Shown here in pieces: positions 3,525 to 22,291 of a stretch of DNA of 32,421 nt. Below the pieces are notes generated by a model, which searched no databases, was not told the DNA's origin, and worked only from the letters and a program-made list of their open reading frames with translations. Source of the DNA: a virus. The first letter of the stretch is position 1, and each line of letters opens with the position of its first letter. Made by a program: the position numbers and the translations under genes. The stretch covers positions 1-32,421 of IMG/VR virus record IMGVR_UViG_3300027779_000093; one strand, 5' to 3'.

Positions 3525-3533
3525 GAGTAAATT

Positions 3534-3818: not shown

Positions 3819-3828
3819 GGAGAAAACA

Positions 3829-4475: not shown

Positions 4476-4476
4476 A

Positions 4477-4911
4477 ATGTTTACATCATTACTTACTTTA
4501 TTTTCACCATTAATATCCACGGTGTTAGAAAGAGTGCTGCCTGAAGACAAACAAAAAGTTAAAGAGATTGAGGCTGCAATAAATTTAGAGTTAATTAGAA
4601 ATTCAGCGGTCTTAGAAAAAGGTGCAACTCAAATTATTTTAGCTGAAGCAAAATCTGAGCATTGGCTAACATCTAATTGGAGACCTCTTTTGATGTTAGT
4701 TATAATTGCAATTATTGCCTGGAATTATTTAATTGCTGCATTGTTAAATGTTATTGCCTTGCTGGTGTACGGACAAACTTATCCGCTTCAAATTGATTTA
4801 CCAGAAGAAATGTGGACACTTTTAACGATTGGAACAACAGGATATGTAGCTGGTAGAAGTTTTGAAAAAGTAGCAGAAAACATAAATATTAATAGAAACT
4901 CAAGAAATTGA
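4477..4911 (+). CDS. Holin-like protein, three membrane segments (GTA_holin_3TM type)
   Basis: A 144-residue inner-membrane protein predicted to permeabilise the membrane late in infection. The start is the ATG at 4477, just after the preceding stop; a TTG 12 bases earlier is a poorer choice. Segments: a hydrophobic N terminus (1-20), an amphipathic stretch (22-60), the characteristic HWLTSNWRP turn before a long hydrophobic region (about 69-97), and a third segment (about 112-127) preceding GRSFEK. The WRP/long TM/GRSxEK pattern is that of the 3-TM holin family first described in gene transfer agents. A strong terminator hairpin follows within 10 bases. No endolysin gene is adjacent, which is unusual for a lysis cassette. 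Confidence 0.75.
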   Translation: MFTSLLTLFSPLISTVLERVLPEDKQKVKEIEAAINLELIRNSAVLEKGATQIILAEAKSEHWLTSNWRPLLMLVIIAIIAWNYLIAALLNVIALLVYGQTYPLQIDLPEEMWTLLTIGTTGYVAGRSFEKVAENININRNSRN

Positions 4912-4918
4912 CCTTCAT

Positions 4919-4940
4919 AGAAGCTCATACAGAGCTTTTT
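4919..4940 (+). terminator. Rho-independent terminator after the holin-like gene
   Basis: AAGCTC (4921-4926), five-base loop, GAGCTT (4932-4937), with the second arm running into five T residues (4936-4940). It closes the fibre/lysis gene group; the next gene starts at 4983. Confidence 0.7.
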
Positions 4941-4982
4941 AAACTCTCCCCAATACTGAACTAACCCACATATGAGGTCATA

Positions 4983-5201
4983 ATGACAAATAAGAACGTA
5001 TTATCAATGTACCCAAAGCTTATGGTTTCTTGCCCAGAGTGTGGTGGTATTAATTATTTTGTTGAAGCAAGATATTTAGAATTTCTTAAAGATGAAGCAG
5101 AAATGGAAATTGTAGGTTTACGCTGTGTAAGCACAGACTGCAATTACATAATCGAGATGAACAATGATCAAGAAGTCAACTTTGAATTAGAACTAGAATA
5201 A
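4983..5201 (+). CDS. Small zinc-ribbon protein
   Basis: A 72-residue acidic protein with four cysteines spaced as a zinc ribbon: C17-P-E-C20-G-G and C48-x4-C53. GAGG lies 6 bases before the ATG. Such small ribbons often bind nucleic acid or act as transcription accessory factors, but the family is not recognised. It sits between the lysis genes and the phosphoesterase and probably shares an operon with the latter, whose start is 10 bases downstream. Confidence 0.6.
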   Translation: MTNKNVLSMYPKLMVSCPECGGINYFVEARYLEFLKDEAEMEIVGLRCVSTDCNYIIEMNNDQEVNFELELE

Positions 5202-5211
5202 GGAGAGTATC

Positions 5212-6279
5212 TTGAGTAATAATAAAGCTGGAAGACCAAGTCTTGATGATGGAATATTAAATCAAGCAATATCATTATGGAAAGAACACGACAAAAATAT
5301 AAGTAAGGCGGCCCTGTCTCTTGGAATGTCTTATGCAACATTTTACCATAGATTAAATAAAGCATTTGATAGGTTGGAGGAGGGTGACCAGGATGAGTTT
5401 GATATTAAACCACCTTTTGATCCAGAAGAGCCTGTTGAAAAAACCGTTGAACGAATGCTTGAAAATTATAAGAATAATAAAAGAGCAAAAGATGAGAGAG
5501 ACCTTATGCCAATTAAGGTTACTCACGACAAACCTATCTGTATTGTTTTTATGGGCGATCCACATATTGGAAACCCAGGAATGAACATTGAAAGTTTTAT
5601 GGATGATGTTCAAATTATTCGTAATACCGATGGAATGAAGGTTATAAATTTAGGTGATACAGCAGACAGCTGGATTGGAAATTTATGTAAACTTTACGCT
5701 AATAGTCCTATCACTGTAAATCAAACATGGAAGCTTGTTGAATTTTTCTTAGGAAAAGAACATGGCCTTGGTGATGATTTTCTTGTAGCGATTTCAGGTA
5801 ACCACGATCTCTGGCATAGTTCTTATGGTGATATTTTGGAATGGATCAAAGAGCCAAAAACTATCTATGAAGAATGGGCTGCAAGTTTAGATGTACAATT
5901 TTCAAATGATGTATCTTGTAAAATTCATGCTGCTCATGATCATCCTGGTAGATCACAATACGCTGCCAACTTTGGTCAGACTAAAGCTGCAATGTTTATG
6001 TCTAAGTACGATATCATTGCTGGTGGTCATACCCACACATGGGCAACTTCAACTTTTGAACAGCCAGGTCATGATCGTGTATGCCATACAATAAGAGCTC
6101 GTGGATATAAACACTTTGATCATTACGGAAAAAGATTGGGCTATGAAGAAATGCAATATGGCCAAAGTATATGTTGCGTGATTGATCCAAGAGCTGAAAG
6201 TCGAATTGATTTTATAACAACCTTTCCGTCAGTGAAAACTGCTTCGGATTTTCTTAACTACAAAAGGAGTAAACTATGA
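5212..6279 (+). CDS. HTH-metallophosphoesterase (calcineurin-like) fusion protein
   Basis: A 355-residue protein starting at TTG (5212) behind GGAGAG; no nearby ATG keeps the N-terminal domain. Residues ~12-52 form a Fis/resolvase-like helix-turn-helix (ISKAALSLGMSYATFYHRLNKA). Residues ~108-335 are a metallophosphoesterase with all the usual metal-site motifs: GDPH (D116, H118), GDTAD (D149), GNHD (N197, H198) and GGHTH (H273, H275), plus HAAHD around residues 239-243. Family members hydrolyse phosphodiesters or phosphomonoesters with two metals. The DNA-binding N terminus suggests a nucleic-acid substrate or targeting to DNA, which is inference. It precedes a tiny basic gene (ATGA overlap) and the attP region, so it is the last large gene before the attachment site. 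Confidence 0.8.
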   Translation: MSNNKAGRPSLDDGILNQAISLWKEHDKNISKAALSLGMSYATFYHRLNKAFDRLEEGDQDEFDIKPPFDPEEPVEKTVERMLENYKNNKRAKDERDLMPIKVTHDKPICIVFMGDPHIGNPGMNIESFMDDVQIIRNTDGMKVINLGDTADSWIGNLCKLYANSPITVNQTWKLVEFFLGKEHGLGDDFLVAISGNHDLWHSSYGDILEWIKEPKTIYEEWAASLDVQFSNDVSCKIHAAHDHPGRSQYAANFGQTKAAMFMSKYDIIAGGHTHTWATSTFEQPGHDRVCHTIRARGYKHFDHYGKRLGYEEMQYGQSICCVIDPRAESRIDFITTFPSVKTASDFLNYKRSKL

Positions 6280-6434
6280 TGGGAACTAAATCTATTTTAA
6301 TGGGTGCTAAATCCAAAAAGAAAAAAACTGGTGCATCAGGTAATAAAGCTGCTGGTTCTGGCAACCCTAAAAAACTTGGTGGCTCAGTAGTAAGGCCATC
6401 TACTAAATCTCGTTCTAAAAAAACTATGTACTAA
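6276..6434 (+). CDS. Tiny highly basic protein next to attP
   Basis: A 52-residue ORF (ATG at 6276 overlapping the upstream TGA; a second ATG at 6279 is equally possible) with AAGGAG 6 bases upstream. It is extremely Lys/Ser/Gly-rich (AKSKKKKTG, TKSRSKK), with no hydrophobic core, so it is probably disordered and nucleic-acid or virion associated. It is the same general type as the 45-residue basic protein at 23647. The good ribosome site and coupled start support its being real. Function unknown. Confidence 0.6.
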   Translation: MMGTKSILMGAKSKKKKTGASGNKAAGSGNPKKLGGSVVRPSTKSRSKKTMY

Positions 6435-6435
6435 T

Positions 6436-6461
6436 CTCAGAGAAAAACTCAGAGAAAGAAA
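6436..6461 (+). repeat. Tandem CTCAGAGAAA repeats (candidate integrase arm sites)
   Basis: Two identical copies of CTCAGAGAAA begin at 6436 and 6448, a 12-bp period. The second extends as CAGAGAAAGAAA (6450-6461), which recurs exactly at 6668-6679 on the other side of the attP core. This is the layout expected of arm-type binding sites for a tyrosine integrase. Confidence 0.5.
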
Positions 6462-6482
6462 TTTATAAAAGGATGTAAATTT

Positions 6483-6501
6483 CAGAGAAGAATTAGAGAA
6501 G
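6483..6501 (+). repeat. Degenerate CAGAGAAG / TAGAGAAG pair (candidate arm sites)
   Basis: Two further copies, CAGAGAAG at 6483-6490 and TAGAGAAG at 6494-6501, with an 11-bp period and the same orientation as the pair at 6436-6461. Confidence 0.4.
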
Positions 6502-6581
6502 AAGTTATTGATAGTTTATAAAAGTTATCTATAGTAAAACATAATTAATATAGTAATTATAGGTTATCAATGGTCAATTTT

Positions 6582-6609
6582 ACGGGTTCGAGTCCCGTCA
6601 TTCCCGCCA
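6582..6609 (+). other. attP core: 3' end of a tRNA gene (T-arm, acceptor strand, CCA)
   Basis: The T-stem ACGGG (6582-6586), loop TTCGAGT and stem CCCGT (6594-6598) are followed by acceptor strand CATTCCC, discriminator G and CCA (6607-6609). The upstream 40 bases do not form the rest of a tRNA, so this is the tRNA fragment a phage carries at its attachment site to rebuild the host gene after integration. The discriminator G and overall sequence recall tRNA-Asp and other G73 tRNAs; the isotype cannot be fixed from this fragment. The integrase starts 220 bases downstream. Confidence 0.85.
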
Positions 6610-6748: not shown

Positions 6749-6777
6749 TTGACTATGACATATCCTGTCATTATATA
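6749..6777 (+). promoter_or_regulatory. Predicted int promoter
   Basis: TTGACT (6749-6754), 17-base spacer, TATATA (6772-6777), reading towards int. The spacer contains an exact copy of the phage operator palindrome, so binding there would block RNA polymerase. Confidence 0.6.
6755..6771. promoter_or_regulatory. Operator palindrome at int promoter (TGACA-N5-TGTCA)
   Basis: ATGACATATCCTGTCAT: perfect 6-bp arms around a 5-base centre, inside the spacer of the int promoter. Same architecture as 11520-11536 and 12500-12516. Confidence 0.65.
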
Positions 6778-6783
6778 TATACA

Positions 6784-6807
6784 TATGATATCAATTAAGA
6801 TATCATA
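6784..6807. repeat. 9-bp inverted repeat in int leader
   Basis: TATGATATC (6784-6792), spacer AATTAA, GATATCATA (6799-6807): a perfect palindrome between the predicted -10 and the int ribosome site. It is AT-only apart from one G/C pair per half around GATATC, so it is unlikely to be a terminator. It may be a second operator (for example for the excisionase-like protein) or an mRNA hairpin that limits int translation. Confidence 0.55.
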
Positions 6808-6828
6808 ATATAGTCAAGGGAGATGACA

Positions 6829-7938
6829 ATGAAAATATATCAAGATAAGACTAAGAAAAAAAACGGTACAAAATCATGGATCGCAGCTGATGGCCAATCC
6901 AGAAAACTTTTTAATACTAAATCAGAAGCATTAGATTATGAAAGAGATGTTCTAGTGCAGCAGACCAATGGCGTGTTTGTAAAAGTAGGCGATAGAACTT
7001 CAATGGCAAATGCCAAAGAAGCTTATGTAGCTTATATAGAAAGAAGATACGAAGCTGGTACAATTAAGTCTAAAGAGTATAAAGGTTCAGTTAACAAAAT
7101 AACTGTTATGAGTGAATTGGTTGATCTTAATAAGAATGTTAATGAGATCGATGTTTTAGATTTAGAAAAGCTTGTTGAAAGATTAGCTAAAGGTAGATCA
7201 TACAAGACTGTAAAAAATTACCTTATCACATTAAGTAACTTTTTTAAGTTTTCAATGAAGATGAAATGGGCAGCTTTAAATCCTGTTAGAGAACTTATAC
7301 TAAATGATTTAGTACAAAATGAAGTTAACTTTGAAGATAATCTTGCTAAGAAAATTTCTGATAATAATATAAATGCTGTCATTGATTTTTATTCTGAAAA
7401 TCACGAAAACAAATTAGCAATTTTATTATCAATATCTACTGGACTGAGAGCGGGTGAACAAAGAGCTCTTACCTGGGGCGATATTGATTTTGAAAAAAAC
7501 AAATTGTCTGTAAACAAATCTGCTGATGAAAATAATCAGATCAAAGGTCCGAAGACAAAAGCTGGTGTTAGAGATATTCCTTTAAGATTAGAATTAAAAG
7601 AAGCATTACAAGTCTGGAAAATGAAATCTAATTTCTCTACAGATAATGATTTAGTTTTCTCAACTGCTCAAGGAACTGTTCTTGGTCCAAATTATTTTAT
7701 GAGACAGGTTTTAATACCAGCTCAAAAAGCATCTGGTATTGATAGTTTTAGATGGCATGATCTAAGACATTATTTTGCATCTAAACTTTTACAAAACTTT
7801 CAGGATGAACTTTGGACTGTAACTACAATTATGGGCCATAAAGATATTAAAACAACTCATCAAATTTATAGTCATTGGTTGGAAGACGCTGAAAGGGATC
7901 AAAAAATTTACAATAAATTTAACAATACATGGAGTTAA
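6829..7938 (+). CDS. int: Tyrosine site-specific integrase
   Basis: Catalyses recombination between attP (6582-6609) and a host tRNA gene. The start at 6829 has AGGGAG with 6-base spacing; the ATG at 6823 sits directly against that site and is rejected. Of 369 residues, 1-55 resemble a small arm-binding domain, ~56-155 are the core-binding SAM-like domain, and ~170-360 are catalytic. Active-site residues: R207 in STGLRAGE, a lysine in the KGPKTKAG turn (around 242-244), H310-D-L-R313, H337 in MGHK, and nucleophile Y347 in THQIYSHW. Length and residue set are complete, so it should be active. Transcription from the predicted promoter at 6749 is probably repressor-controlled through the palindrome at 6755-6771. 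Two small genes follow in the same direction. Confidence 0.95.
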   Translation: MKIYQDKTKKKNGTKSWIAADGQSRKLFNTKSEALDYERDVLVQQTNGVFVKVGDRTSMANAKEAYVAYIERRYEAGTIKSKEYKGSVNKITVMSELVDLNKNVNEIDVLDLEKLVERLAKGRSYKTVKNYLITLSNFFKFSMKMKWAALNPVRELILNDLVQNEVNFEDNLAKKISDNNINAVIDFYSENHENKLAILLSISTGLRAGEQRALTWGDIDFEKNKLSVNKSADENNQIKGPKTKAGVRDIPLRLELKEALQVWKMKSNFSTDNDLVFSTAQGTVLGPNYFMRQVLIPAQKASGIDSFRWHDLRHYFASKLLQNFQDELWTVTTIMGHKDIKTTHQIYSHWLEDAERDQKIYNKFNNTWS

Positions 7939-7940
7939 TA

Positions 7941-8252
7941 ATGGGCGGTACTAAAAGATGGTATATGGAGGAGGAAGAAAAACTCCTCCAGGAAATAGGG
8001 GATGAAGCTTTCGAGGAAAGATTAGAAGCAATGGGCGGGCCATGCGATCCATGCTTTACTGATTATCCAAATTTTAGAATAGAGAGGTACAGAGATCACA
8101 CAACCTTTACACCTTTAAATGAAAGTGCTGAAGGGTGGTGGTTAGATAAAATTGAACCTGAGTGCAAAACAAAAGGCGATAGCTATATTGTTGAAAATCG
8201 TTTTGCTCCTGAAATTATAAAGGGAATTAATTATGCCATCACTGGGAGATAA
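7941..8252 (+). CDS. Small acidic protein of unknown function
   Basis: The start at 7941 has GGAG 6 bases upstream, inside the end of int, giving 103 residues. The N-terminal third is strongly acidic (MEEEEKLLQEIGDEAFEERLEAM), followed by GGPCDPC with two close cysteines, then a tryptophan-rich segment (EGWWLDKIEPEC). The three cysteines are not arranged as an obvious zinc finger. I do not recognise the family. It is cotranscribed with int and overlaps the next gene by 20 bases, so it may be an accessory to lysogeny or a passenger gene; nothing shows which. Confidence 0.6.
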   Translation: MGGTKRWYMEEEEKLLQEIGDEAFEERLEAMGGPCDPCFTDYPNFRIERYRDHTTFTPLNESAEGWWLDKIEPECKTKGDSYIVENRFAPEIIKGINYAITGR

Positions 8253-8532
8253 ATTATTATTTGAACCACAAGACGATGGCTGCGATGACCTAAGATTAAA
8301 TATGGTTAATTTTGCTAAACAGTTTGGCCTTACAGATGAAGAGATAATTAATCTTATAGATCACACTAATGCAGAGTTAGCTTTTTTTGAAATGTTACCA
8401 GAACACGAAAAACAAAAGGCATTGGATCGAACAACTGAAAATGTTAATAGAATATTAGTAGAAAATCCAGAGCTAGACGAATTGTCCCCATACCTCGAAT
8501 CTCTGCCCATTAATAGGCACGACATCAACTAG
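8233..8532 (+). CDS. Small acidic helical protein of unknown function
   Basis: A 99-residue protein with AAAGGGA before its ATG, overlapping the preceding gene by 20 bases in another frame. It is acidic and mostly helical (AKQFGLTDEEIINLIDHTNAELAFFEMLPEHEKQKALDR), with no cysteines beyond one, no membrane segment and no recognised motif. It is the last gene of the int transcript and faces the leftward recombination operon across a short hairpin region. Function unknown. Confidence 0.6.
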   Translation: MPSLGDKLLFEPQDDGCDDLRLNMVNFAKQFGLTDEEIINLIDHTNAELAFFEMLPEHEKQKALDRTTENVNRILVENPELDELSPYLESLPINRHDIN

Positions 8533-8550
8533 TATATAGGTTATGCTAAA

Positions 8551-8567
8551 AAGCTCTCTATGGGCTT
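8551..8567 (-). terminator. Weak, possibly bidirectional terminator between convergent operons
   Basis: AAGCTC (8551-8556) pairs with GGGCTT (8562-8567), one G-T wobble. Read on the minus strand the hairpin runs into TTTTT; on the plus strand a T run follows 11 bases later (8578-8584). It lies between the convergent ends of the int group and the recombination operon. Confidence 0.4.
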
Positions 8568-8586
8568 CTATAAGGGTCTTTTTTCC

Positions 8587-8940
8587 TTACAAATCATTCC
8601 AAAACTCATTTTCTGCTTCAGAAGCAGCAATTAAGAACTTTGTTGCTATATTTCTCATTTTAGTAGGATTAGCGGGGCAGCGATAATATACAAAATCATC
8701 ATCGCTGTTGTTCCTGACTAATAGTCTAATCTCTCCAGGCACTGCCCACAGAAGAAAATTCTGTGATTGTACTTCTCGCAATAAAACTTCTTTTTCCAAT
8801 TTGCTTAACTGGTATTGACCCTTCTTTGATAGCTTTCCGAACTCTGGCCCTGTTACCTTCACTGCTTGATCCGAAGAGCTCTTTTGCTGCTTCAGGAACG
8901 GATAGTAGAATACTTTTTTGAATTGTTTCTTCCATTGCAT
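8587..8940 (-). CDS. Overlapping-frame ORF at end of recombination operon (true extent uncertain)
   Basis: A 117-codon frame starting at an ATG coupled to the preceding stop (TAATG at 8940). Its first 65 codons run across the excisionase-like gene (8726-8935) in a frame shifted by one base. Only its last third lies outside that gene: residues 67-117, with YYRCPAN and IATKFLIAASEAENEFW, look like ordinary protein. A GTG at 8742 would give a 51-residue product overlapping the HTH gene by 17 bases. Either the full ORF is translated as a dual-coding region, a +1 frameshift joins the HTH protein to this tail, or only the short version is made. Function unknown. Confidence 0.4.
   Translation of the reverse strand: MQWKKQFKKVFYYPFLKQQKSSSDQAVKVTGPEFGKLSKKGQYQLSKLEKEVLLREVQSQNFLLWAVPGEIRLLVRNNSDDDFVYYRCPANPTKMRNIATKFLIAASEAENEFWNDL
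8726..8935 (-). CDS. Excisionase-like winged HTH protein
   Basis: A 69-residue product if started at the ATG at 8935; the same frame is open further upstream, but those codons lie in the preceding gene. The sequence LLSVPEAAKELFG, VRKAIKEGSIPV, KQIGKRSFIARSTI follows the MerR/AlpA/excisionase pattern: helix, turn, recognition helix, then the xxIGxRxxIxxxxI wing. Such proteins act as recombination directionality factors or small regulators. In a phage with an integrase and no other obvious excisionase, Xis is the natural guess, but this is inference. It is the last or next-to-last gene of the leftward operon and overlaps the alternative frame 8587-8940. No clear ribosome site; translation may be coupled to the upstream stop at 8940. 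Confidence 0.6.
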   Translation of the reverse strand: MEETIQKSILLSVPEAAKELFGSSSEGNRARVRKAIKEGSIPVKQIGKRSFIARSTITEFSSVGSAWRD

Positions 8941-9248
8941 TAATCATCAAAGCCTGGAATAGCATCTTCATTAAATCCAGGTATTGCATCATCAAATGGA
9001 TCGGCGGCTTCAACAGCGTCTGCATTTGGAAACAAATTAAATTGTGCTACCTCTGGATAACCAGCATCAGCATTTTTACTGCTAATTTTAATTCCCAAAG
9101 AATTTCCATCTTGTGATAATTTGTTAACAACAGCTGCTTCAAGTTTTGGATCACCTAAGTTTAGCCATAGTGCACCTGAGTAACCCTCGTTAGCGTTCAT
9201 TGATTGTTTTAATTGTAATTTACTGTTTGAAAAATGTGGTTTTCCCAT
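8940..9248 (-). CDS. Small recombination-operon protein with SSB-like acidic C-terminal tail
   Basis: A 102-residue protein directly after the annealing-protein gene (8-base gap). Residues 1-75 include SGALWLNLGDPK and GISLKI-type beta-rich sequence (NSLGIKISSK) but no motif I can name. The C terminus carries two copies of an acidic motif, DDAIPGF and EDAIPGF, ending in DD. This resembles the conserved acidic tip of bacterial SSB (DDDIPF), which docks recombination and repair proteins. A single-strand-binding or SSB-mimic role beside an annealing protein and exonuclease is therefore plausible but inferred; the N-terminal part is short for a full OB fold. Its stop overlaps the next ATG. Confidence 0.55.
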   Translation of the reverse strand: MGKPHFSNSKLQLKQSMNANEGYSGALWLNLGDPKLEAAVVNKLSQDGNSLGIKISSKNADAGYPEVAQFNLFPNADAVEAADPFDDAIPGFNEDAIPGFDD

Positions 9249-9256
9249 TTCTACTC

Positions 9257-10039
9257 CTATTGTAATTGTTTATATTTATCTGTGTAAAATTTGGTAACTT
9301 TCTTACCTATAATAGTGTACTGCTTGTTTGTTTCTAAATGCAGCTTTCTATATTGCTTCATGGAAGAGACTAAAGCATCAGCACTATTAAGTGTTCCCCA
9401 ATACTTCATTGTACCTTCCCAAAAATTTGTTGTTCTTCCAAAATCTTGCAATATAAATTCATCATCCCAACTTTCTAATGAAGGTGGTTTGATTTCTTTA
9501 GTCTCCAGCGAAGCTTCAACAGTAGGGCGAGACAAGGATTGATCAACCTTAATTCCCTTTGCTGGAGCTTCACTGGTATCAGTGCGAGGCTTGCTCTTAT
9601 TGATTGAAGAGCTAACAGGCTTCTGATTTTTTTCTGTAGCGTCTAGATCGGACAAAGCGTCTTTAATCCATAGATCCAAACCCAACCCAAACAATGCAAT
9701 GTTTTTAACTAAACATCTTTTTTCAGTGTTTATGATTTGGTTCATTTGGGGGTTTTTAACTGGGCTATTATTAAAATCTGTAACAGGCAACTGACATCGT
9801 ATTGTCATTCCGTTTATAGTTAATTCAGTTTGTATGTATACTTCCTTGGTGTCTTGATCTTTAAAATAATGAAGTCCAGAAGTCTGGTCCATTATTGTTT
9901 TGTATTCAAAGCTTTTTACAATATCAGATGTAGCCAATATTCTCCAAGCATTAGGCCAAGAAACATAATCAAACTTACCTTTCTTTTCCTTCATTTTAGT
10001 AACGTCAATATTATATAGTGTCTCAAATAACTCTTTCAT
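9257..10039 (-). CDS. Single-strand annealing protein, Sak/Rad52-like (DUF1071 type)
   Basis: Anneals complementary single strands during phage recombination and genome concatemer or circle formation, partnering the exonuclease encoded upstream. Of 260 residues, ~1-135 match the DUF1071 family: FDYVSWPNAWRILA near the N terminus (24-36) and the hallmark KRCLVKNIALFGLGLDLW at 107-124. Residues 136-185 are a low-complexity Ser/Lys/Pro linker. Residues 190-260 form a small C-terminal domain (SWDDEF, FGRTTNFWEG, YRKLHLE) that could bind DNA or a partner. It overlaps the preceding gene by 17 bases and precedes the SSB-tail gene, a typical order for phage recombination operons. Confidence 0.8.
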   Translation of the reverse strand: MKELFETLYNIDVTKMKEKKGKFDYVSWPNAWRILATSDIVKSFEYKTIMDQTSGLHYFKDQDTKEVYIQTELTINGMTIRCQLPVTDFNNSPVKNPQMNQIINTEKRCLVKNIALFGLGLDLWIKDALSDLDATEKNQKPVSSSINKSKPRTDTSEAPAKGIKVDQSLSRPTVEASLETKEIKPPSLESWDDEFILQDFGRTTNFWEGTMKYWGTLNSADALVSSMKQYRKLHLETNKQYTIIGKKVTKFYTDKYKQLQ

Positions 10040-10370
10040 TGTCTCCCTCTACCTTTTTAAAATTAAAAAAACTTTTGTATTGTGGATTTTTCTTAACCCA
10101 CTCTCGTGCATAATAAGGTTGATGATTATTTGAAATTTTAAATTCATCATCACTTGTCATGACTTCTTTTTCCCACCTAATTCTATTTATAATCATTGCA
10201 GCCGATATCTTTGTTTTACCTTTGCCAATATAGTCTCGGCAAAATTGATCAAACAATTCATAAACCTCTGGATTGTCTTCATGAAAATCTATAAATGCTT
10301 CTTCCCTTTTATTTCTGTAAGAAGTATTCATTAAATCTAAAAGCGTTCTTTCTAATTGAATTTGCATCAT
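10023..10370 (-). CDS. Conserved phage protein of unknown function in recombination operon
   Basis: A 115-residue protein with a compact conserved core: FHEDNPEVYELFDQF, then IGKGKTKISAAMIINRIRWE and FKISNNHQPYYAREW. This pattern (FH..NP.VY..F; the IRWE segment; the NNH.PYYAR motif) recurs in many temperate-phage proteins that have no assigned function. No catalytic residues are evident; the His/Asn/Tyr/Arg cluster could be a nucleic-acid site. Its start overlaps the stop of the 30-residue membrane peptide (ATGATG), and its end overlaps the annealing-protein gene. Confidence 0.7.
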   Translation of the reverse strand: MMQIQLERTLLDLMNTSYRNKREEAFIDFHEDNPEVYELFDQFCRDYIGKGKTKISAAMIINRIRWEKEVMTSDDEFKISNNHQPYYAREWVKKNPQYKSFFNFKKVEGDNERVI

Positions 10371-10459
10371 AGCTTCACCGTCATATCAATAATCCAAATA
10401 ACAAATAAGATTGTTGCCATACCAAAAAAAACTATTCTTAAAAATTCCATGTAGCTCAT
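10367..10459 (-). CDS. Micro membrane protein (30 aa)
   Basis: A 30-codon ORF beginning MSYMEFLRIVFFG with a single hydrophobic segment (about residues 6-25, FFGMATILFVIWII) and a basic C terminus. Its ATG overlaps the stop of the preceding micro-ORF (ATGA) and its own TGA overlaps the next ATG. Such unbroken coupling is hard to explain unless it is translated. Function unknown; a one-pass inner-membrane peptide is the only firm prediction. Confidence 0.6.
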   Translation of the reverse strand: MSYMEFLRIVFFGMATILFVIWIIDMTVKL

Positions 10460-10560
10460 CCGATTACTCCTAAAAACATCCACACTTGAAAAACAACAAT
10501 AACAACCATTAGATATTGCCCCCATCTTGGCGGTGTCCAATCCCAATTAATTTTTCTCAT
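10456..10560 (-). CDS. Micro membrane protein (34 aa)
   Basis: A 34-codon ORF with an N-terminal Trp/Pro-rich head (NWDWTPPRWGQYL) and one hydrophobic segment (about 18-33, MVVIVVF then VWMFLGVIG). The ATG overlaps the stop of the exonuclease gene (ATGA) and the stop overlaps the next start. It sits in the middle of a DNA recombination operon, where a membrane peptide is unexpected. Possible roles such as superinfection exclusion, a holin-like function or membrane tethering are speculation. Confidence 0.6.
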   Translation of the reverse strand: MRKINWDWTPPRWGQYLMVVIVVFQVWMFLGVIG

Positions 10561-11477
10561 TTAAGTCCCCATAATTTTTTTGCTAAATCCCTTTGATCAG
10601 GGTTCATGTTATTCCATCGCCAATCACCAAAATCAGGCTCTATTAAATCAAAAAGCTCTTTAACATTTTTTGCTTTTCTCAAAATATTTTCCCGTCTTTT
10701 ACAAGTAACTATTGCTGATTGCATAACTTGATCTAAATATTCGTCAGAAAGTTTTGAACAGTTATCAGAATTAAAAATGACGTAATCATCTTCATTAGCT
10801 ACAACAATAGTCGGTGATTTTTTTGACCCATACCAATAACCAGCTACCTGGCCCAACCAACTATCTAATGGTTCTTTTGGTAAAGGTTTTTTATAAAACC
10901 CAGTCTTTGATCTTTCATTTGCTGTTGGCCATACAGTTTTTAATTCTATATGACCGCTTTCAAAATCTTCTCTACCGCTATACGGCAAAGCACAGCCAGG
11001 CAGCTCGAATAGATATTCCTTCTCCCCAAGGAATTTATTTAATCCGAGCTGCTGACTTACCTCTTTGAGACCAGAAATAGCGTTCTCTGCAACTATTTCA
11101 ACAAGATCGGAATAATAGTGATGTTTAAAACTATCCCTCACATCCCAATCTACTGGCTCATAGGCTAAAAATTCTTCTTTGGCTGTTTTGTAATCGTTTT
11201 CATTTTCTGTTATTAATTTAGCGTCTACTAATTTCTGTACTGTAGTACCAGCTTGCATGGGTGCTGATTTAGTCTGTAGAAGCTTAACAGTTCTCCAGGC
11301 TTCTTGTATTTGATCTTTATCTTCAGAAAGTTTTATAATCTCCCATGCTTTTTTTACTAAAGGTCTTTTATAACATTTATCAAATACATGAAGGTGAAAA
11401 GGTGCTGATTTTATATTACTATGATGATAGTAATTTAAATTGCTTGCCCAATCTGGTGTTGATAATTTCCCTTTCAT
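10557..11477 (-). CDS. PD-(D/E)XK exonuclease (RecB/Cas4/YqaJ-like) of phage recombination system
   Basis: A 306-residue protein, first gene of the leftward operon, predicted to resect DNA ends and give the annealing protein single strands. The nuclease core is visible: YSGREDF with D171, a short strand, then E178-L-K180 (ExK motif), and WLGQVAGYWYG with Q210, the conserved glutamine/aromatic helix of RecB-like nucleases. Residues 1-125 are helical and contain AGTTVQKLVD (76-85), which resembles the N-terminal helix carrying the first conserved residues in this class. The C terminus is helical and basic. The ribosome site GGGAG lies 7 bases upstream. Exact family is uncertain; the nuclease assignment is strong given motif spacing and the annealing-protein neighbour. 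Confidence 0.75.
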   Translation of the reverse strand: MKGKLSTPDWASNLNYYHHSNIKSAPFHLHVFDKCYKRPLVKKAWEIIKLSEDKDQIQEAWRTVKLLQTKSAPMQAGTTVQKLVDAKLITENENDYKTAKEEFLAYEPVDWDVRDSFKHHYYSDLVEIVAENAISGLKEVSQQLGLNKFLGEKEYLFELPGCALPYSGREDFESGHIELKTVWPTANERSKTGFYKKPLPKEPLDSWLGQVAGYWYGSKKSPTIVVANEDDYVIFNSDNCSKLSDEYLDQVMQSAIVTCKRRENILRKAKNVKELFDLIEPDFGDWRWNNMNPDQRDLAKKLWGLK

Positions 11478-11506
11478 GATATCTCCCGTATCTTTAATTG
11501 ATTTGG

Positions 11507-11536
11507 AAGATAACTTGATTTGACATTCAATGTCAA
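11507..11536 (-). promoter_or_regulatory. Predicted leftward promoter of the recombination operon
   Basis: On the minus strand: perfect -35 TTGACA (11531-11536), 18-base spacer, TATCTT (11507-11512). The -35 is itself one arm of the operator palindrome at 11520-11536, so repressor and polymerase should compete. Confidence 0.55.
11520..11536. promoter_or_regulatory. Operator palindrome at recombination-operon promoter
   Basis: TTGACATTCAATGTCAA: perfect 6-bp arms around a 5-base centre, same architecture as the sites at int and at the repressor/cro region. Confidence 0.7.
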
Positions 11537-11585
11537 TAATAAATGTTATTTGCTATCATTTACTATTACTTATTAAGGCATAGGC

Positions 11586-11612
11586 AATAAAAAAGGGAGC
11601 ATATAGCTCCCT
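11586..11612 (-). terminator. Rho-independent terminator after the repressor gene
   Basis: On the minus strand AGGGAGC, five-base loop, GCTCCCT (arms 11594-11600 and 11606-11612) followed by TTTTTTATTG. It prevents repressor transcripts from running into the recombination operon. Confidence 0.85.
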
Positions 11613-11634
11613 CAATTACAATATTTTTTGTTAT

Positions 11635-12423
11635 TTATCTTTTAAAATAATCGTCTTCTTTGATCATCCATACAGATCTATGTGACCTACCATCAACAGT
11701 GGCAAATATTTGGTACACTTCCTCTACTTCACACTCAGTTAAAACTTTATCAGTAAAAGGTACAAGCAAAGATAACTTTCCTAGGGGCTCTTTAAAAGGT
11801 TTATAAAATCCAATAGGTCTAACACCGTGTTTCTCAGCAGACTTTTTAGTCATACGAACAAAACAAAATTTTTGTAAGTAATGTTCTCCTGGTGTTGTAT
11901 CAAGCATGATTACCTTATCATAGGCCATATGACCTTCTTCATTAGATAAAAGTATTTTACAACTTGGTAAGGTAACAGGCGGGATTGCAAATCTTTCTTC
12001 CTCTATAATATCAACATCAAGTATATCAGGCTGATCAAAGTTTTTTGGATTAGCTTCAAAATTCACATATCCAATTATTGGTACAGGATCAGGTGGAAAC
12101 AAAAGTATAGCTGGCGGAATATTTAAAAGCTTACCATACATTTCAGCGTCTTCTATACTGATTTGAGTTTTACCATTCATATGCCTTGAAATACTCTCAG
12201 GTCTTTTTTCTAATTGTTGTGCAAGCTCAATATTTGTTAATCCCATATTGTTTGCTGCAACCTGAAGCAAGCTTACGTTATTATTTTTTGATTTAATCCT
12301 TTCGGAGGCCGCCATGATCAATTCTCCCATTTTGTTTTGTGTCTTCCCAGTGTCAACCATATGATTGTGCACCGCTATCTGCTCTGCTTTTTTTACAATA
12401 TTTACTTTAGCTCTTGTGTCCAT
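11635..12423 (-). CDS. CI-like phage repressor (XRE-type HTH plus degenerate S24-like C-terminal domain)
   Basis: Probable master repressor of lysogeny. The start is set at the ATG at 12423 because AGGGAG lies about 11 bases upstream; the frame is open to 12531, but that stretch holds operators and promoters. Of 262 residues, ~60-105 form an XRE/CI helix-turn-helix (LTNIELAQQLEKRPESISRHMNG, then SIEDAEMYGKLLNIP). Residues 114-262 begin VPIIGYVNFEA and resemble an S24/LexA-type dimerisation domain (DKVIMLDTT, HYLQKFCFVRM, LSLLVPF), but I see neither the usual Ala-Gly cleavage site nor a GDSM serine motif. It may not self-cleave. It is divergent from the Cro-like gene with operators between, and a terminator follows it. 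Confidence 0.75.
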   Translation of the reverse strand: MDTRAKVNIVKKAEQIAVHNHMVDTGKTQNKMGELIMAASERIKSKNNNVSLLQVAANNMGLTNIELAQQLEKRPESISRHMNGKTQISIEDAEMYGKLLNIPPAILLFPPDPVPIIGYVNFEANPKNFDQPDILDVDIIEEERFAIPPVTLPSCKILLSNEEGHMAYDKVIMLDTTPGEHYLQKFCFVRMTKKSAEKHGVRPIGFYKPFKEPLGKLSLLVPFTDKVLTECEVEEVYQIFATVDGRSHRSVWMIKEDDYFKR

Positions 12424-12499
12424 GTCACTTATAACTCCCTTGTAAGTATTTTTATTATTAATAAAAGAGCAATCAATACGGACTATTATCAGTATCATA

Positions 12500-12516
12500 C
12501 TGACAGCTACTGTCAA
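12500..12516. promoter_or_regulatory. Operator O1 in repressor/cro intergenic region
   Basis: CTGACAGCTACTGTCAA, with exact TGACA-N5-TGTCA. Its centre is 31 bp (about three helical turns) from that of O2, suitable for cooperative binding on one DNA face. The right arm read on the minus strand is a TTGACA -35 hexamer. Confidence 0.7.
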
Positions 12517-12518
12517 AC

Positions 12519-12547
12519 TAAATAATGACATTGACTTGATCTGTCAA
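12519..12547 (-). promoter_or_regulatory. Predicted repressor promoter
   Basis: Minus strand TTGACA (12542-12547), 17-base spacer, TATTTA (12519-12524). The -35 overlaps operator O2. A second TTGACA at 12511-12516 has only poorly placed -10 candidates (GATAAT at 20-base spacing). Confidence 0.5.
12531..12547. promoter_or_regulatory. Operator O2 in repressor/cro intergenic region
   Basis: TTGACTTGATCTGTCAA: palindromic TTGAC/GTCAA arms with one mismatch to the inner TGACA consensus. An extra TGACA half-site (12526-12530) abuts it. Confidence 0.6.
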
Positions 12548-12564
12548 GCAAATACACATAGTAT
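12536..12564 (+). promoter_or_regulatory. Predicted rightward (cro-side) promoter
   Basis: TTGATC (12536-12541), 17-base spacer, TAGTAT (12559-12564); alternatively TTGACT (12531) with a weaker -10. Both overlap operator O2, so repressor binding would shut off the rightward early operon. Confidence 0.45.
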
Positions 12565-12596
12565 GTAACACATTATGACACATGGAGATAAATAAG

Positions 12597-12854
12597 ATGC
12601 GATTAGAGGATTGGAGACATACAAAGAAGCGTGGCGGAAAGCCAATGTCATACTCAGTTTTGGCAAATGGAATAGGGGTGTCACACGCAACAGTAGCAAG
12701 AAGGTATTGTTTACCTTTTCAACACAAGGATTTTTCCAGACCAGCTGAAGAAATCATGTTGAACATACAAGAATTTACAATGGGTGCGGTTAAACCAAAT
12801 GATTTTTATAATCTACCAGAAGAAGAAAATGAAGATGTTAAAAATGTGGCTTAG
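12597..12854 (+). CDS. Cro-like small HTH regulator
   Basis: The start is set at 12597, where GGAG stands 9 bases upstream; the earlier ATG at 12582 overlaps that ribosome site and is rejected. The 85-residue product has a basic N terminus (WRHTKKRGGKP) and a helix-turn-helix SYSVLANGIGVSHATVARRY at about residues 17-36, followed by an acidic tail. Its position, divergent from the repressor and first in the rightward operon, is that of Cro in lambda-like phages. Expected role: repress the repressor promoter on lytic entry, binding the same operators. Sequence alone does not prove which operator it prefers. Confidence 0.7.
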   Translation: MRLEDWRHTKKRGGKPMSYSVLANGIGVSHATVARRYCLPFQHKDFSRPAEEIMLNIQEFTMGAVKPNDFYNLPEEENEDVKNVA

Positions 12855-12860
12855 AAAATA

Positions 12861-13145
12861 ATGCCAGGTATTAGTGAAAAGATGTTGAATAAACTATCTT
12901 CTTTTCCGCAAGAGAAGTCTTTGGCAAGAGATCATGAAATAGACGATGCTTTAGAGGCATTAATGATTGCATCAGAAGAACTAAAAAGATTAAAAAAAGA
13001 AAAAGATGTTAGCTCAGTAGATGTAGCAAGAGCACTAACTAACCCACAATTTCCAAACAAGGCAAAAAAAGCTTTATCAAACTATACCTGGTTAGACGTT
13101 GCCCTAACCATTGCTAAAAAATGGTATTTACTAAGGAGTTTGTAA
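12861..13145 (+). CDS. Small early-operon protein, unknown
   Basis: A 94-residue protein 6 bases after the Cro-like gene, with a weak ribosome site. It is helical and charged (DDALEALMIASEELKRLKKEKD), ending in a hydrophobic, Trp-containing stretch (YTWLDVALTIAKKWYLL). No recognised domain. The order after Cro suggests an early replication or regulatory role, as inference only. Its stop is at 13143-13145, overlapping a nearby ATG. Confidence 0.6.
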   Translation: MPGISEKMLNKLSSFPQEKSLARDHEIDDALEALMIASEELKRLKKEKDVSSVDVARALTNPQFPNKAKKALSNYTWLDVALTIAKKWYLLRSL

Positions 13146-13148
13146 TGT

Positions 13149-13739
13149 ATGCGAAAGAAGGTCTCGAAAAGAAAACAGCAAGGCACAGAGCTGCCGCTAG
13201 GAGAATGTTTTGTTTGCAAGCAACCACATTATCGCCAAGAGAGTACCTGGGTAATAACAATGAACGACAGATTGTTATGCGAACCGATGAGGAAAGATTG
13301 CTTCGACAAGCAGCGAGGTATTACAGAAAACAGCACCAAAGAAGAGAGCACCTTGACCGTTAAATCGAAATATGATACCGATGGTGCTATATATAGCGGG
13401 ATCGCTAATCAACCCACCAAACAAATTTATAGAAATAAAGATAATAGCAATCTTAATAGCTCTCAAGCTATTAATAGCAGAGCTAGAGCTGATAAAATTA
13501 TTAAGGATGTAGCAAAAGAGCTCAACCCTTATTACTCAGCAGCAAAAACAAGCAGACAAAAAATGGGCACGCTAGACTTTCGATGGAAGCGTGTATTCAA
13601 GCAGCTAGATAAAAACCTATCTAGAGATAAATATGCCTCTCTCCTGAACAATGCATCAAACCTGAATGATCAACAAAAGAACTTATGGTTAACCAAAATG
13701 GAGAAATTTCTTGGCCTCAAAACTGTTCCACGAACATGA
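13149..13739 (+). CDS. Early-operon protein with CxxC zinc site, unknown
   Basis: A 196-residue protein with AAGGAG upstream (10-base spacing). The N terminus is Lys/Arg-rich, followed by a probable zinc site: C20-F-V-C23 and C44...C51, with H27 nearby. Residues 60-110 are low complexity (Ser, Asn, Lys, Thr). Residues ~113-190 are helical and charged (ADKIIKDVAKELNPYYSAAK, RWKRVFKQLDKNL). The overall look is of a nucleic-acid-binding early protein. I cannot tell a replication initiator from a transcription factor, and no helicase or primase motifs are visible. It overlaps the next gene by 29 bases. Confidence 0.6.
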   Translation: MRKKVSKRKQQGTELPLGECFVCKQPHYRQESTWVITMNDRLLCEPMRKDCFDKQRGITENSTKEESTLTVKSKYDTDGAIYSGIANQPTKQIYRNKDNSNLNSSQAINSRARADKIIKDVAKELNPYYSAAKTSRQKMGTLDFRWKRVFKQLDKNLSRDKYASLLNNASNLNDQQKNLWLTKMEKFLGLKTVPRT

Positions 13740-14148
13740 CGTATCAGAACTTTATGACTTCTTTATTGAAGCTGCATACATAGAGCAAATACTGCCAGCT
13801 GTCTTTCGTAAGCAGAAACTATCTTATTGGCCTGATCACAAAATAGCCTGGGATGCTTATGGATGGGATAGCGGAGCTAAACCACAAATTAGAGCATCAG
13901 CAAAACAAATAGATCACTATGACAAAGCATTAGAGTTATCATCAATGATCAACCTGGATGAAAGAAGGCTTATCTGGGCAGTAGCACACAGCTCCATTAT
14001 TAACGATAAAAATACAGGCATTGGATATAGAGAGCGTGGTCCTAATTGGCATAGAGTAGCAAAGATTATGGCCATAGATCATAGGACCGTTAAAAGAAAG
14101 CTTATAGATGCGATTATAAGGCTATACTACCAACTTCAACTCATATGA
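13711..14148 (+). CDS. HTH protein resembling DUF6362 family, end of early operon
   Basis: A 145-residue protein; the frame opens at TTG 13711 inside the previous gene, and a slightly later start is possible. The N-terminal half is helical. The C-terminal half reads LDERRLIWAVAHSS... GPNWHRVAKIMAIDHRTVKRKLIDAIIRL, a helix-turn-helix similar to that of the DUF6362 phage/bacterial family. As the last gene of the rightward early operon it occupies the place of a late regulator (lambda Q position). That comparison is only positional. It overlaps the convergent methyltransferase gene by 13 bases, and no terminator separates them. Confidence 0.6.
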   Translation: MASKLFHEHDVSELYDFFIEAAYIEQILPAVFRKQKLSYWPDHKIAWDAYGWDSGAKPQIRASAKQIDHYDKALELSSMINLDERRLIWAVAHSSIINDKNTGIGYRERGPNWHRVAKIMAIDHRTVKRKLIDAIIRLYYQLQLI

Positions 14149-15284
14149 CTGAGGATATGCTCAATAACTTTTACAGTAAATCCGTTACCAAGCATTTTAT
14201 ATCGCTGTGTATTTGATACTCCATCAGTATAGTTATCTGGAACTGTTTGCAATCTCTCACATTCTAAAGGCGTTAGCTTACGCCAAGTTAGTTCTTCTTC
14301 TTTAACTGCTATGCTATCTTTTTGTACTGTAGTAATAGCATTACTTTTAGTATCCTTTCGTATCTCTAAATGCTGATTAGTTTTACCCTCATCATTATAT
14401 CTACCTCTGATAGCACCACCTTTAACAGCAACTTTAGGTTCTCTATTGCCACCACCCATTGAGTTAAGTGTAGGTGATTTACCATCCTCTGAGTACACTC
14501 GCTTTAATATGTCATGACCATTTATTTCTGCGGCAGTACCGACTTGTTTCGTTGTATTGTAAGTAGGCTTACCTTCATTATCACAGGCTAAATAGTTACC
14601 TTGCCTTCCATTCTTTACATAATCCATAGCAGAAAAACTGTGAGCCTTTTCTTTGGTATCATCAATCATACAATTTCTTTCTCCATTTCTTTTGAGAAAG
14701 TTATCTGACATCTTTGTAAATTCTTCTGGTTCATATTCCAACACATCTCTCAATACTAAACCAACATCTTCTGGCTGTTCAATGTTTGGTATGTTAGTCC
14801 AATACAATCTATTTCTATTCTGTGCTGAAAGTAATGCAGAGTTAATTAGAATAGGTTCGATACCAAATAGACCATTATTAGAACACTCAGGATATATAGA
14901 TGATACTTGTTCTGATATAACATCTTGAAACTCTTGTTTCATACGAACATTCTCAAGCAAGAAGTATTTAGGTTTAACTTCTTTTAACAATCTAACAAAC
15001 TCAAAGAACAATGCTGAACGTGGATCATCAAAAGCTAATTGCTTACCCGCAAAACTAAACCCCTGACAAGGAGAGCCACCTACTATTAAATCTATGTCAG
15101 GTAAATCTTCACCTTTAATGTCTTTAATATCACCAAGCTGCACAGTATCTGGAAAGTTCTTTTGTGTTATTTGAATAGCATATTTATCTATTTCACTTGC
15201 ACAGTAAGTATCAACTTTAATACCTAAATTGTTTAATGCAATTTGTGTTCCACTACATCCGTCAAATAAGCTTAATACCCTCAT
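14136..15284 (-). CDS. DNA (cytosine-5) methyltransferase
   Basis: Transfers a methyl group from S-adenosylmethionine to C5 of cytosine in a target sequence. Of 382 residues: motif I LSLFDGCSGTQIAL (4-17), the Asp/Glu cluster ASEID (29-33), motif IV GGSPCQGFSFAGK with nucleophile C73, motif VI ENVR (111-114), motif VIII QNRNRLYW (155-162), a target-recognition region at about 180-330, then WRKLTPLECERLQTVPDNYT and motif X (LGNGFTVKVIEHIL). All key motifs are present, so activity is likely. There is no neighbouring restriction gene, so it is probably an orphan that protects phage DNA or alters expression. It is transcribed against the early operon and divergently from terS, with an operator-like palindrome at 15326 upstream. 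Confidence 0.9.
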   Translation of the reverse strand: MRVLSLFDGCSGTQIALNNLGIKVDTYCASEIDKYAIQITQKNFPDTVQLGDIKDIKGEDLPDIDLIVGGSPCQGFSFAGKQLAFDDPRSALFFEFVRLLKEVKPKYFLLENVRMKQEFQDVISEQVSSIYPECSNNGLFGIEPILINSALLSAQNRNRLYWTNIPNIEQPEDVGLVLRDVLEYEPEEFTKMSDNFLKRNGERNCMIDDTKEKAHSFSAMDYVKNGRQGNYLACDNEGKPTYNTTKQVGTAAEINGHDILKRVYSEDGKSPTLNSMGGGNREPKVAVKGGAIRGRYNDEGKTNQHLEIRKDTKSNAITTVQKDSIAVKEEELTWRKLTPLECERLQTVPDNYTDGVSNTQRYKMLGNGFTVKVIEHILSHMS

Positions 15285-15578
15285 TGTTTAAATGTATAAT
15301 GATTGACTTAGTATGACAATACTGATTGACAGCAAGTGTCTATATATTATTAACAGTTATGTCATTTAATGTTGCGAATGATACGAATAATGTTATTAAT
15401 TAGTTAACATTGGATAGCTATCTGTTCTCCTCTCCTCATAATTATAGGTAGTTATCAACATTGTAATCTAGGGCTGGTGTTTAATCTCCCTCCCTTTCTT
15501 ATAAATGTCAGTCCTAGTAACAACGATTTAAATCAACAGTATTTATTATTAAATCAGAAGCTTTAGAGGTAACTATAT
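15285..15578. promoter_or_regulatory. Divergent control region, methyltransferase / terS
   Basis: A 294-base AT-rich non-coding interval. Features seen: operator-like palindrome (15326-15342), a rightward TTGACA at 15326-15331 with TATTAA about 16 bases later, the palindrome GATAGCTATC (15413-15422), and the direct repeat CGAATGAT / CGAATAAT near 15375-15390. It probably holds the late (packaging/head) promoter and the methyltransferase promoter. No ORF of note. Confidence 0.5.
15326..15342. promoter_or_regulatory. Operator-like palindrome upstream of methyltransferase and terS
   Basis: TTGACAGCAAGTGTCTA: TGACA-N5-TGTCT, one mismatch from the exact operator. The left arm is a perfect -35 hexamer for rightward transcription. 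Confidence 0.5.
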
Positions 15579-16034
15579 ATGCCTAAAAAAGAACGATTAT
15601 CAGAAAAACAATTTACTGAAGTATTAGATCGTATTGTATCTGGTGAGAGCTTAACATCTATATGTAAAGAAACTCACTTACCATCCTGGAGAACAGTGCT
15701 GCGGCATTGCCAGGACACTGAAGAGGCATATGAAAGATATGCTAGAGCAAGAGCTGCTCAATCAGAAGTATTAATGGATCAGATAGCTGATATATGGAAT
15801 GAACCCTTCCCTGAAGACGCTAAAGAGAAGCACAGTGAAGTTTTAAGACGAGATAAGGCATCGTATTGGCTAGATAAAAGAGCACGTCAGATGCAACCTA
15901 AAGGTCTTACAAACAAGGTAGATACTAAACAGGACACAGGTGTCATAACCTTATCATGGCAGAATACTGCTGATGATGAGAGTAATGGTACTAATACTGC
16001 TCAAGTCATGAAGCTTGTAAAGCCTAGTGAATAG
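15579..16034 (+). CDS. terS: Terminase small subunit
   Basis: Recognises phage DNA for packaging and hands it to the large subunit. A 151-residue protein: the N-terminal helix-turn-helix (FTEVLDRIVSGESLTSICKETHLPSWRTVLRH, about 12-43) is the usual DNA-binding part, followed by a helical oligomerisation region (YARARAAQSEVLMDQIADIW, HSEVLRRDKASYWLDKRARQMQPK) and an acidic, disordered tail. Order and size fit small subunits of the terminase small subunit family whose helical YxRAREAQ segment is typical. The ribosome site is AGAGG about 7 bases before the ATG. A 163-base gap separates it from terL, unusual for this pair. Confidence 0.8.
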   Translation: MPKKERLSEKQFTEVLDRIVSGESLTSICKETHLPSWRTVLRHCQDTEEAYERYARARAAQSEVLMDQIADIWNEPFPEDAKEKHSEVLRRDKASYWLDKRARQMQPKGLTNKVDTKQDTGVITLSWQNTADDESNGTNTAQVMKLVKPSE

Positions 16035-16050
16035 TGTGTGTGTTTAACGC

Positions 16051-16072
16051 TGCGTGTCAGCACTCGCACGCA
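16051..16072. other. Hairpin-forming, GC-rich patch in terS-terL gap
   Basis: TGCGTG (16051-16056) and CACGCA (16067-16072) are perfect arms around 10 bases, in a locally GC-rich patch of otherwise AT-rich DNA. The 16035-16197 gap has no credible ORF. A packaging site or regulatory RNA element is possible, but unproven. Confidence 0.35.
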
Positions 16073-16197
16073 CGAGGATGCAGATAACATAGGCCAAGCT
16101 TATGATTATCTTCTCTATATCTTCTCTGGCTGTAGATTATCCGCAGTAAATAGCCATATGTTTCGGGATCAGCACCCGCAACAATAAATAATTAAGC

Positions 16198-17580
16198 ATG
16201 GGGGGTATGTTTTCAGCCATTACGACCCCTACCCCCCCAAAGAAACGGGAGCGGCTGGAGGTGCGTTATAACCAAACAGAGGAGTGTCTAACAGTGACTG
16301 AGATCGTCATACCATATACGCCAAGACCATTACAGGCAGAACTACATTATGCCTTAGATAAATATAGATGGGGCGTTGTAGTGTGTCACAGAAGATTTGG
16401 TAAAACAGTCATGGCAATAAACCATGTCCTCAGAGCAGCAATACTATGCGATAAAACTAACCCTAGGTTTGCTTATCTTGCTCCCACATACAGACAGGCA
16501 AAAGCTGTTGCTTGGGATTATGTAAAGCAATTTACGGAACAGATACCTGGAGTAAGGTATCATGAAACAGAATTAAGATGCGACCTTCCAAATGGAGCTC
16601 GTATATCCCTTCTAGGAGCTGAGAACCCTGACAGCCTTAGAGGTATTTATTTAGATGGATGTATTATGGATGAGGTGGCTGATATGCCAGAGCCCATCTT
16701 TCCAGAGATTATTAGACCAGCTCTTTCAGATAGAAAAGGTTGGTGTGTGTTTATAGGAACTCCTAGAGGGCACAATATGTTTTTTGACTATTATGAAAAG
16801 GCATCAAATGAAGATGATTGGTATACGATATTATACAAGGCATCAGAAACAGGAATATTAGACGAAGAAGAATTGACGGCCGCCAAGGTCATGATGACCG
16901 ATGATCAGTACGAACAGGAGTTTGAATGTTCCTGGGTGGCTAATGTGCCAGGTGCGATCTACGGCAAAGAAATGCAAATAGCATTAGAAGATAAAAGAAT
17001 TACAACCATACCATATGACCCCGCATATCCCGTGCAAACTTATTGGGATTTGGGAATAGGTGACAGCACCGCCATATGGTTCACTCAACAGATAGGAAGA
17101 CAGATAAATGTTATTGATTATTACGAAAATCGCAACGAAGGCTTACCTCACTACATTAAGTATTTGGCTAGCCTTAACTATATATATAACGATCACATTG
17201 CCCCTCATGATATCGAGGTCCGTGAATTGGGTACGGGAAAGTCTAGGCGTGAGACTGCTTATGATCTTGGTCTCAACTTTCGTGTGTGCCCTAAACTACC
17301 TATTGAAGACGGCATACACGCTGCTCAACTTTTACTACAAAGGTGTTATTTCGACACTGAAAAAACTAAAAAAGGCTTGGAAGCGTTAAGACAATATCAC
17401 AGGGCATATGATGAAAAGAAAAGATCTTTTAGGCCATCTCCTATTCATGACTGGTCCAGCCATGCTGCTGACGCTTTCCGATATCTTGCAGTGGGTATTC
17501 GGGAAATAAGAGATCAACAAAGAGCCCCGCAGAAATATGCCGATAGCAATTACGACCCTTTAGCAATTACTTTAGAATGA
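16198..17580 (+). CDS. terL: Terminase large subunit (packaging ATPase/nuclease)
   Basis: Motor that cuts and pumps DNA into the prohead, docking on the connector. Of 460 residues, the N-terminal ATPase domain has a deviant Walker A VVCHRRFGKT (61-70, K69), Walker B GCIMDE with catalytic E159, and the coupling motif GTPRG (187-191). The C-terminal RNase H-like nuclease shows YWDLG (D284) and HDWSSHAADAFRYL with D418 and D425. Length and motifs are complete. The start at 16198 (ATG within a G run) lacks a clear ribosome site; an ATG at 16207 is an alternative. The next gene begins 8 bases later. Confidence 0.92.
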   Translation: MGGMFSAITTPTPPKKRERLEVRYNQTEECLTVTEIVIPYTPRPLQAELHYALDKYRWGVVVCHRRFGKTVMAINHVLRAAILCDKTNPRFAYLAPTYRQAKAVAWDYVKQFTEQIPGVRYHETELRCDLPNGARISLLGAENPDSLRGIYLDGCIMDEVADMPEPIFPEIIRPALSDRKGWCVFIGTPRGHNMFFDYYEKASNEDDWYTILYKASETGILDEEELTAAKVMMTDDQYEQEFECSWVANVPGAIYGKEMQIALEDKRITTIPYDPAYPVQTYWDLGIGDSTAIWFTQQIGRQINVIDYYENRNEGLPHYIKYLASLNYIYNDHIAPHDIEVRELGTGKSRRETAYDLGLNFRVCPKLPIEDGIHAAQLLLQRCYFDTEKTKKGLEALRQYHRAYDEKKRSFRPSPIHDWSSHAADAFRYLAVGIREIRDQQRAPQKYADSNYDPLAITLE

Positions 17581-17587
17581 GATAAGA

Positions 17588-19380: not shown

Positions 19381-19389
19381 GATATAGAA

Positions 19390-20988: not shown

Positions 20989-21005
20989 AAATTTAGGAGG
21001 AGAGG

Positions 21006-21284: not shown

Positions 21285-21292
21285 GAGAAAAT

Positions 21293-22262: not shown

Positions 22263-22291
22263 CCGTTTTTTTTACTTATATGGAGAAACAA

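Follow-up and report, generated by a model that had tools for sequence, protein, structure and literature searches.

A TGAC-N7-GTCA palindrome shared by integrase, recombination and cI/cro promoters is the probable immunity operator of a marine temperate phage lineage

The stretch of DNA analysed here (the window) was an IMG/VR contig (IMGVR_UViG_3300027779_000093) of 32,421 bases, with 35.7% G+C and no terminal repeat. It belonged to a podovirus whose structural module was homologous to that of the HTVC010P-type pelagiphages (portal 56-59% identical), with which it also had nuclease and Sak homologues in common. The gene set comprised a tyrosine integrase gene beside a tRNA-Asp attP, a recombination operon with nuclease and Sak, and divergent genes for a CI-like repressor and a Cro-like protein. 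The CRP-810-type phages, which are temperate marine phages with a nuclease, an annealing protein and an integrase, were like the window in their nuclease and Sak homologues and integrase, and the word "repressor" is absent from the CRP-810 paper (PMC11288001). A tblastn search of isolated phages with the window repressor gave zero matches, and the only match to the Cro-like protein in GenBank phage records was a fecal contig. Phage-like genes lay on both sides of attP and int (1-6570 and 15579-32421), an arrangement that, with the missing terminal repeat, resembled a circularly permuted free phage and not a host-flanked prophage.

A tRNA-Asp(GTC) 3' end made up the attP core (6582-6609, plus strand), which differed by a single C/T change from the 3' end of the complete tRNA-Asp(GTC) gene in L019. 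This end, one base different, also occurred in one single-cell genome of the Pelagibacteraceae and in other Proteobacteria. An exact search with the long form of attP found no matches, and a shorter form found four contigs with tRNA-Asp ends and no related prophage. In L017, a Pelagibacteraceae single-cell genome, a solitary tRNA-Asp 3' fragment (2434-2461) about 700 bp downstream of an intact tRNA-Asp was scar-like, as after integration of an element. The tyrosine integrase was encoded at 6823-7938 on the plus strand (PF00589, E 5.6e-23; phrog_1, E 2.3e-55), and its promoter (6749-6777, plus strand) was read from the sequence as TTGACT (-35, 6749-6754), 17 bp and TATATA (-10, 6772-6777). The palindrome TGACATATCCTGTCA (6756-6770), an exact copy of TGACA-N5-TGTCA, filled the 17-bp spacer and was clear of the -35. 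The whole promoter block was unchanged among the close relatives of the window (identical in L005 and L007), so the conservation there was not operator-specific.

The recombination operon (8587-11477, minus strand) contained a nuclease/exonuclease homologue (10557-11477) resembling the "putative nuclease" of HTVC010P-type pelagiphages, the Sak annealing protein (9257-10039), identified by PF06378, and small genes. The exo promoter on the minus strand consisted of TTGACA (11536-11531), 17 bp and TTATCT (11513-11508), and its -35 was overlapped by a second exact copy, TGACATTCAATGTCA (11521-11535). The half-sites of this copy were constant in L005 and L006/L007, and the centre varied (TTGAA, TTCAA, TTCCA). 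The promoters at int and exo were called by eye; a consensus promoter scan also listed the exo -35, did not pick up the int promoter and was uninformative at cI/cro. The first-pass annotation had put the operator on a -35 in several cases; this was so at exo, and at int the site fills the promoter spacer.

The cI-like repressor gene (11638-12423, minus strand) was divergent from the gene of the Cro-like HTH protein (12597-12854, plus strand), the first gene of the rightward operon. The conserved start of cI was at 12423 (MDTRAK..., preceded by GGGAG), whereas the ORF from the first ATG (12531) would take in the 12501 site; with the conserved start, both cI/cro sites were therefore intergenic. 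The first, TGACAGCTACTGTCA (12501-12515), was exact, kept in L005 and present with one mismatch in L006/L007, and the other, TGACTTGATCTGTCA (12532-12546), had one mismatch and was identical in L005, L006 and L007. Their centres (12508 and 12539) were 31 bp apart, as first annotated, and the distance was 30-31 bp in relatives. A TGACA just ahead of the second site created a longer inverted repeat, TGACA-N11-TGTCA (12527-12546), which was also kept in L005, L006 and L007.

The Cro-like protein (85 aa) belonged to a family of 34 members (A12) and gave a model with pLDDT 90. The repressor had an N-terminal HTH of the P22 c2/434 type, which aligned with operator-bound P22 c2 and 434 repressor/Cro (Z 9.3-10.9), and a C-terminal beta domain. 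Confidence in the predicted CI model was high for the HTH and moderate for the C-terminal domain, and none of the 26 CI members matched Peptidase_S24 (PF00717). The best whole-chain Foldseek matches of the model were the 186 and lambda repressors, with a lambda-186 hybrid repressor at the top (E 9.8e-07), and the superposition with 186 CI was poor (rmsd 10-15 Å, TM 0.22-0.29 on the query, identity 13-16%). Since the VIA-align rows spanned the HTH alone, a 186-type repressor assembly is only a lead.

The accessory cassette of the window consisted of a C5 cytosine methyltransferase gene (14136-15284, minus strand; PF00145, E 1.6e-60), with the one-mismatch copy TGACAGCAAGTGTCT (15327-15341) at its promoter. 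A both-strand scan of the window confirmed that TGACA-N5-TGTCA was exact only at 6756-6770, 11521-11535 and 12501-12515 (0.06 expected from 100 dinucleotide shuffles), and a degenerate scan returned the copies at 12532-12546 and 15327-15341 as the only ones with one mismatch. The exact and one-mismatch sites thus numbered 5, compared with a shuffle mean of 1.3, and 0 of 100 shuffles reached at least 5. All five were palindromic and adjoined a promoter, and a check for many equally good copies within genes came out negative. The wider form, TGAC-N7-GTCA, had one extra exact copy in the window, at 16295 within the large terminase gene, which looks like chance, and a one-mismatch copy beside the dcm promoter (15304-15318) that was weaker than the one at 15327.

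Relatives were fetched by protein similarity alone, without the motif. L005 (CI 71% identical) and L006/L007 carried the motif at the same places as the window. In L009, whose exonuclease was 34% identical to that of the window, the region separating cI from cro had an exact site, and exo was preceded by a one-mismatch site. The exonucleases of L010/L011 were 30-31% identical; both loci had the variant TTGACGT-N3-ACGTCA at exo, L011 had it at int as well, and related sites were present at cI/cro. The original proposal of one operator for int, the recombination operon and repressor/cro was supported, as the site was present at the corresponding promoters in relatives with as little as about 30% protein identity. 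Scans with exonuclease and Cro alignments gave about 150 further loci, and HMM annotation found the order cro-cI-exo-int, including the divergent repressor and small Cro-like HTH genes, in 39 non-redundant contigs.

The test set was made of 33 exonuclease clusters (80% identity) with 77 promoter regions (cro/cI, cro-exo, exo, int), and 256 four-base palindromes at spacings 3-11 were ranked (2,304 combinations). TGAC-N7-GTCA ranked first of the 2,304 and was exact in 34 of the 77 regions, counts that are not fully independent because some clusters are related; ranks 2-4 were the same site in other registers. At other spacings, TGAC/GTCA occurred in at most 4 regions (0 at N6, 1 at N8). Exact copies were present in the cI/cro intergenic region of 11 of 24 clusters (shuffle mean 0.06), at exo in 9 of 24 (0.03), upstream of int in 8 of 20 (0.04) and in 6 of 9 cro-exo regions (0.03), and the whole representative loci held 56 exact copies at N7 versus 0-15 at other spacings. 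The core promoters of 8 of the 33 clusters were without an exact copy, most of them with one-mismatch copies. In L008, L113 and L169, exo was close behind cI and the site was absent. As a sequence pattern, the regulon is real.

The methyltransferase had been named as a tentative regulon member. It was swapped for three or four small unknown genes in L005 (1714-2559) and L006 (750-1357), where the neighbouring sequence differed, yet the exact TGACAGTATCTGTCA headed the replacement cassette. Its membership was supported because the operator stayed at that promoter when the cassette was exchanged. Of 20 clusters, 12 had exact TGAC-N7-GTCA upstream of terS, with nearly all copies at a distance of 145-285 bp and near the divergent accessory gene; in L097, L062, L043 and L008, 46-55 bp separated the copy from the adjoining accessory-side gene start. 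The suggestion that terS itself is in the regulon was not upheld, and terS was rejected as an operator target for lack of evidence.

TGAC-N7-GTCA is most likely the operator of a phage immunity circuit, to which dimers of a small HTH protein would bind: the Cro-like protein in every phage, and the CI-like repressor in phages that carry it. Judged from the sequences, the 15-letter palindrome in the window and dozens of relatives is very probably a switch site through which one phage repressor circuit silences or releases all these genes together. The sites, where they lie at promoters, their conservation and the dialects were read from sequence, from which we infer that CI and Cro are the binders, and likewise the sign and timing of regulation. 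The operator was located on or within the -35 or spacer of the exo/Sak, int, cro, cI and accessory-cassette promoters, and we propose that a bound dimer would thereby exclude RNA polymerase. In a lysogen, CI would hold the recombination genes, the integrase, the cro operon and the accessory genes off and would tune its own gene via the paired sites. On induction or in lytic growth, Cro would build up and turn the same early promoters down again.

Because TTGACA is the -35 consensus, TGAC would be frequent at promoters, and the palindrome might be a by-product of them. The left half-site was indeed the -35 in the exo promoters and most int promoters (a T preceded the exact site to give TTGAC in 24 of 24 and 19 of 22, respectively). 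However, the GTCA half belongs to no promoter element, the int site of the window was separate from the -35, and the nuclease promoter region of HTVC024P had TTGACA without a GTCA partner. The preference for exactly N7 refuted the by-product, which we regard as very improbable. A host transcription factor box is equally improbable. TGTCA is also found in Pho boxes, but in those the repeats are direct and recur every 11 bp, whereas the site here was an inverted repeat of a single constant spacing and its dialects were phage-specific: the base after TGAC (base 5) was A, G, T or C depending on the phage, and agreement within a phage was 0.70 versus 0.38 for shuffled assignments (0 of 2000), which argues for a phage-encoded, co-evolving binder. 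The least probable reading was an RNA-level element (hairpin or attenuator) or an integrase arm site, to which the stem-forming ability of the palindromes and the distance of about 150 bp from the int copy to attP would lend themselves. The int and exo sites, upstream of or within the -35/-10, would stay untranscribed, a terminator-like stem was absent at the sites, and the copies at the exo, cro and accessory promoters had no att role.

It is also conceivable, but unlikely, that Cro alone owns the site, with the Cro-like protein as an early autorepressor and CI acting elsewhere or through other contacts. CI had no match in 9 clusters, most of whose records, many of them fragments, also had no integrase match, and 8 of the 9 kept the exact site in at least one core promoter. 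This persistence suggests that the Cro-like protein probably binds the operator too. L095 (no CI) and L097/L074 (with CI) also had a common Cro helix (KEATVARRWC) and dialect (TGACTT..ACGTCA). Conversely, an exact site was absent from the examined regions of HTVC024P and C72C1, which have a nuclease homologue and no A12-type Cro (C72C1 only a remote HTH). A prophage search in 385 class-level genomes found none, and 397 order-level genomes yielded six apparent SAR11 prophages with the syntenic cI-exo order and a homologous nuclease, in which neither a Cro-like match nor TGAC-N7-GTCA was found in the regions examined. Hence the site tracks the Cro-like protein. Against sole ownership by Cro, the paired sites at 30-31 bp flank the cI promoter, as expected for CI control, CI has its own P22 c2/434-like HTH, and in a lysogen int and exo must be kept repressed, a role for which no other candidate was seen. 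Under the preferred reading, with both proteins as binders, CI presumably reads the same word as Cro where it is present.

As a tentative extension, it is possible that the Cro-like protein dictates the operator word and that this word predates lysogeny control in the lineage, with a constant Cro-operator chassis on which CI and int are gained and lost as modules. If so, temperate and strictly lytic members would have a common early-gene circuit, and the dialect would define the immunity group. In the six Pelagibacterales genomes with the SAR11 prophages (L188-L193), terS was followed by a long cI ORF (394-515 aa open frame) and exo, and int was matched in four. Two of these prophages had another palindrome common to the cI and exo promoters (TTGTACATTTGTACAA in L190, TTGTCAAnnTTGACAA in L191), which suggests that the layout may outlive the operator word.

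The logic of the regulon is classical and follows the lambda-like principle of shared CI/Cro operators. In lambda, int is read from the left operon or a CII-type promoter, whereas in the window int has a promoter of its own that carries a separate operator, which would place the integrase directly under the immunity operator. The lambdoid switch (lambda, P22, 434; N15, PY54, phiKO2; PMC4997575, PMC4488713) was like the window in the divergent cI/cro genes, the paired intergenic palindromic operators, the operator at the recombination operon promoter (11521) and a CI HTH of the P22 c2/434 type. The window differed from it in the inclusion of an accessory cassette and a CI without a Pfam S24 match. 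The use of one recognition word at several separate loci was also similar to that of dispersed-operator repressors, among them C1 of phage P1. Mycobacteriophage L5 belongs to the same group (PMC5712189, PMC6550527), but its stoperators are 13-bp, asymmetric and spread through intergenic regions at about 24 per genome, with the site set retained in its relative D29 (PMC5712189), whereas here there were 4-6 palindromes, at promoters. A literature search on TGACA operators found nothing relevant. What is new here is the uncultured marine lineage, the int gene with its own operator, the dialects and the persistence of the operator without CI. The result is an operator code that can be read in a marine temperate phage group, itself widespread and uncultured; with sequence as the only input, it could serve to predict the genes shut in the lysogen, the phages likely to be homoimmune and the relatives that lost the lysogeny module. 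In L009, a second small HTH protein (5141-5518) adjoined the integrase, and its recognition helix was nearly that of CI (RPETVSRHMNGK).
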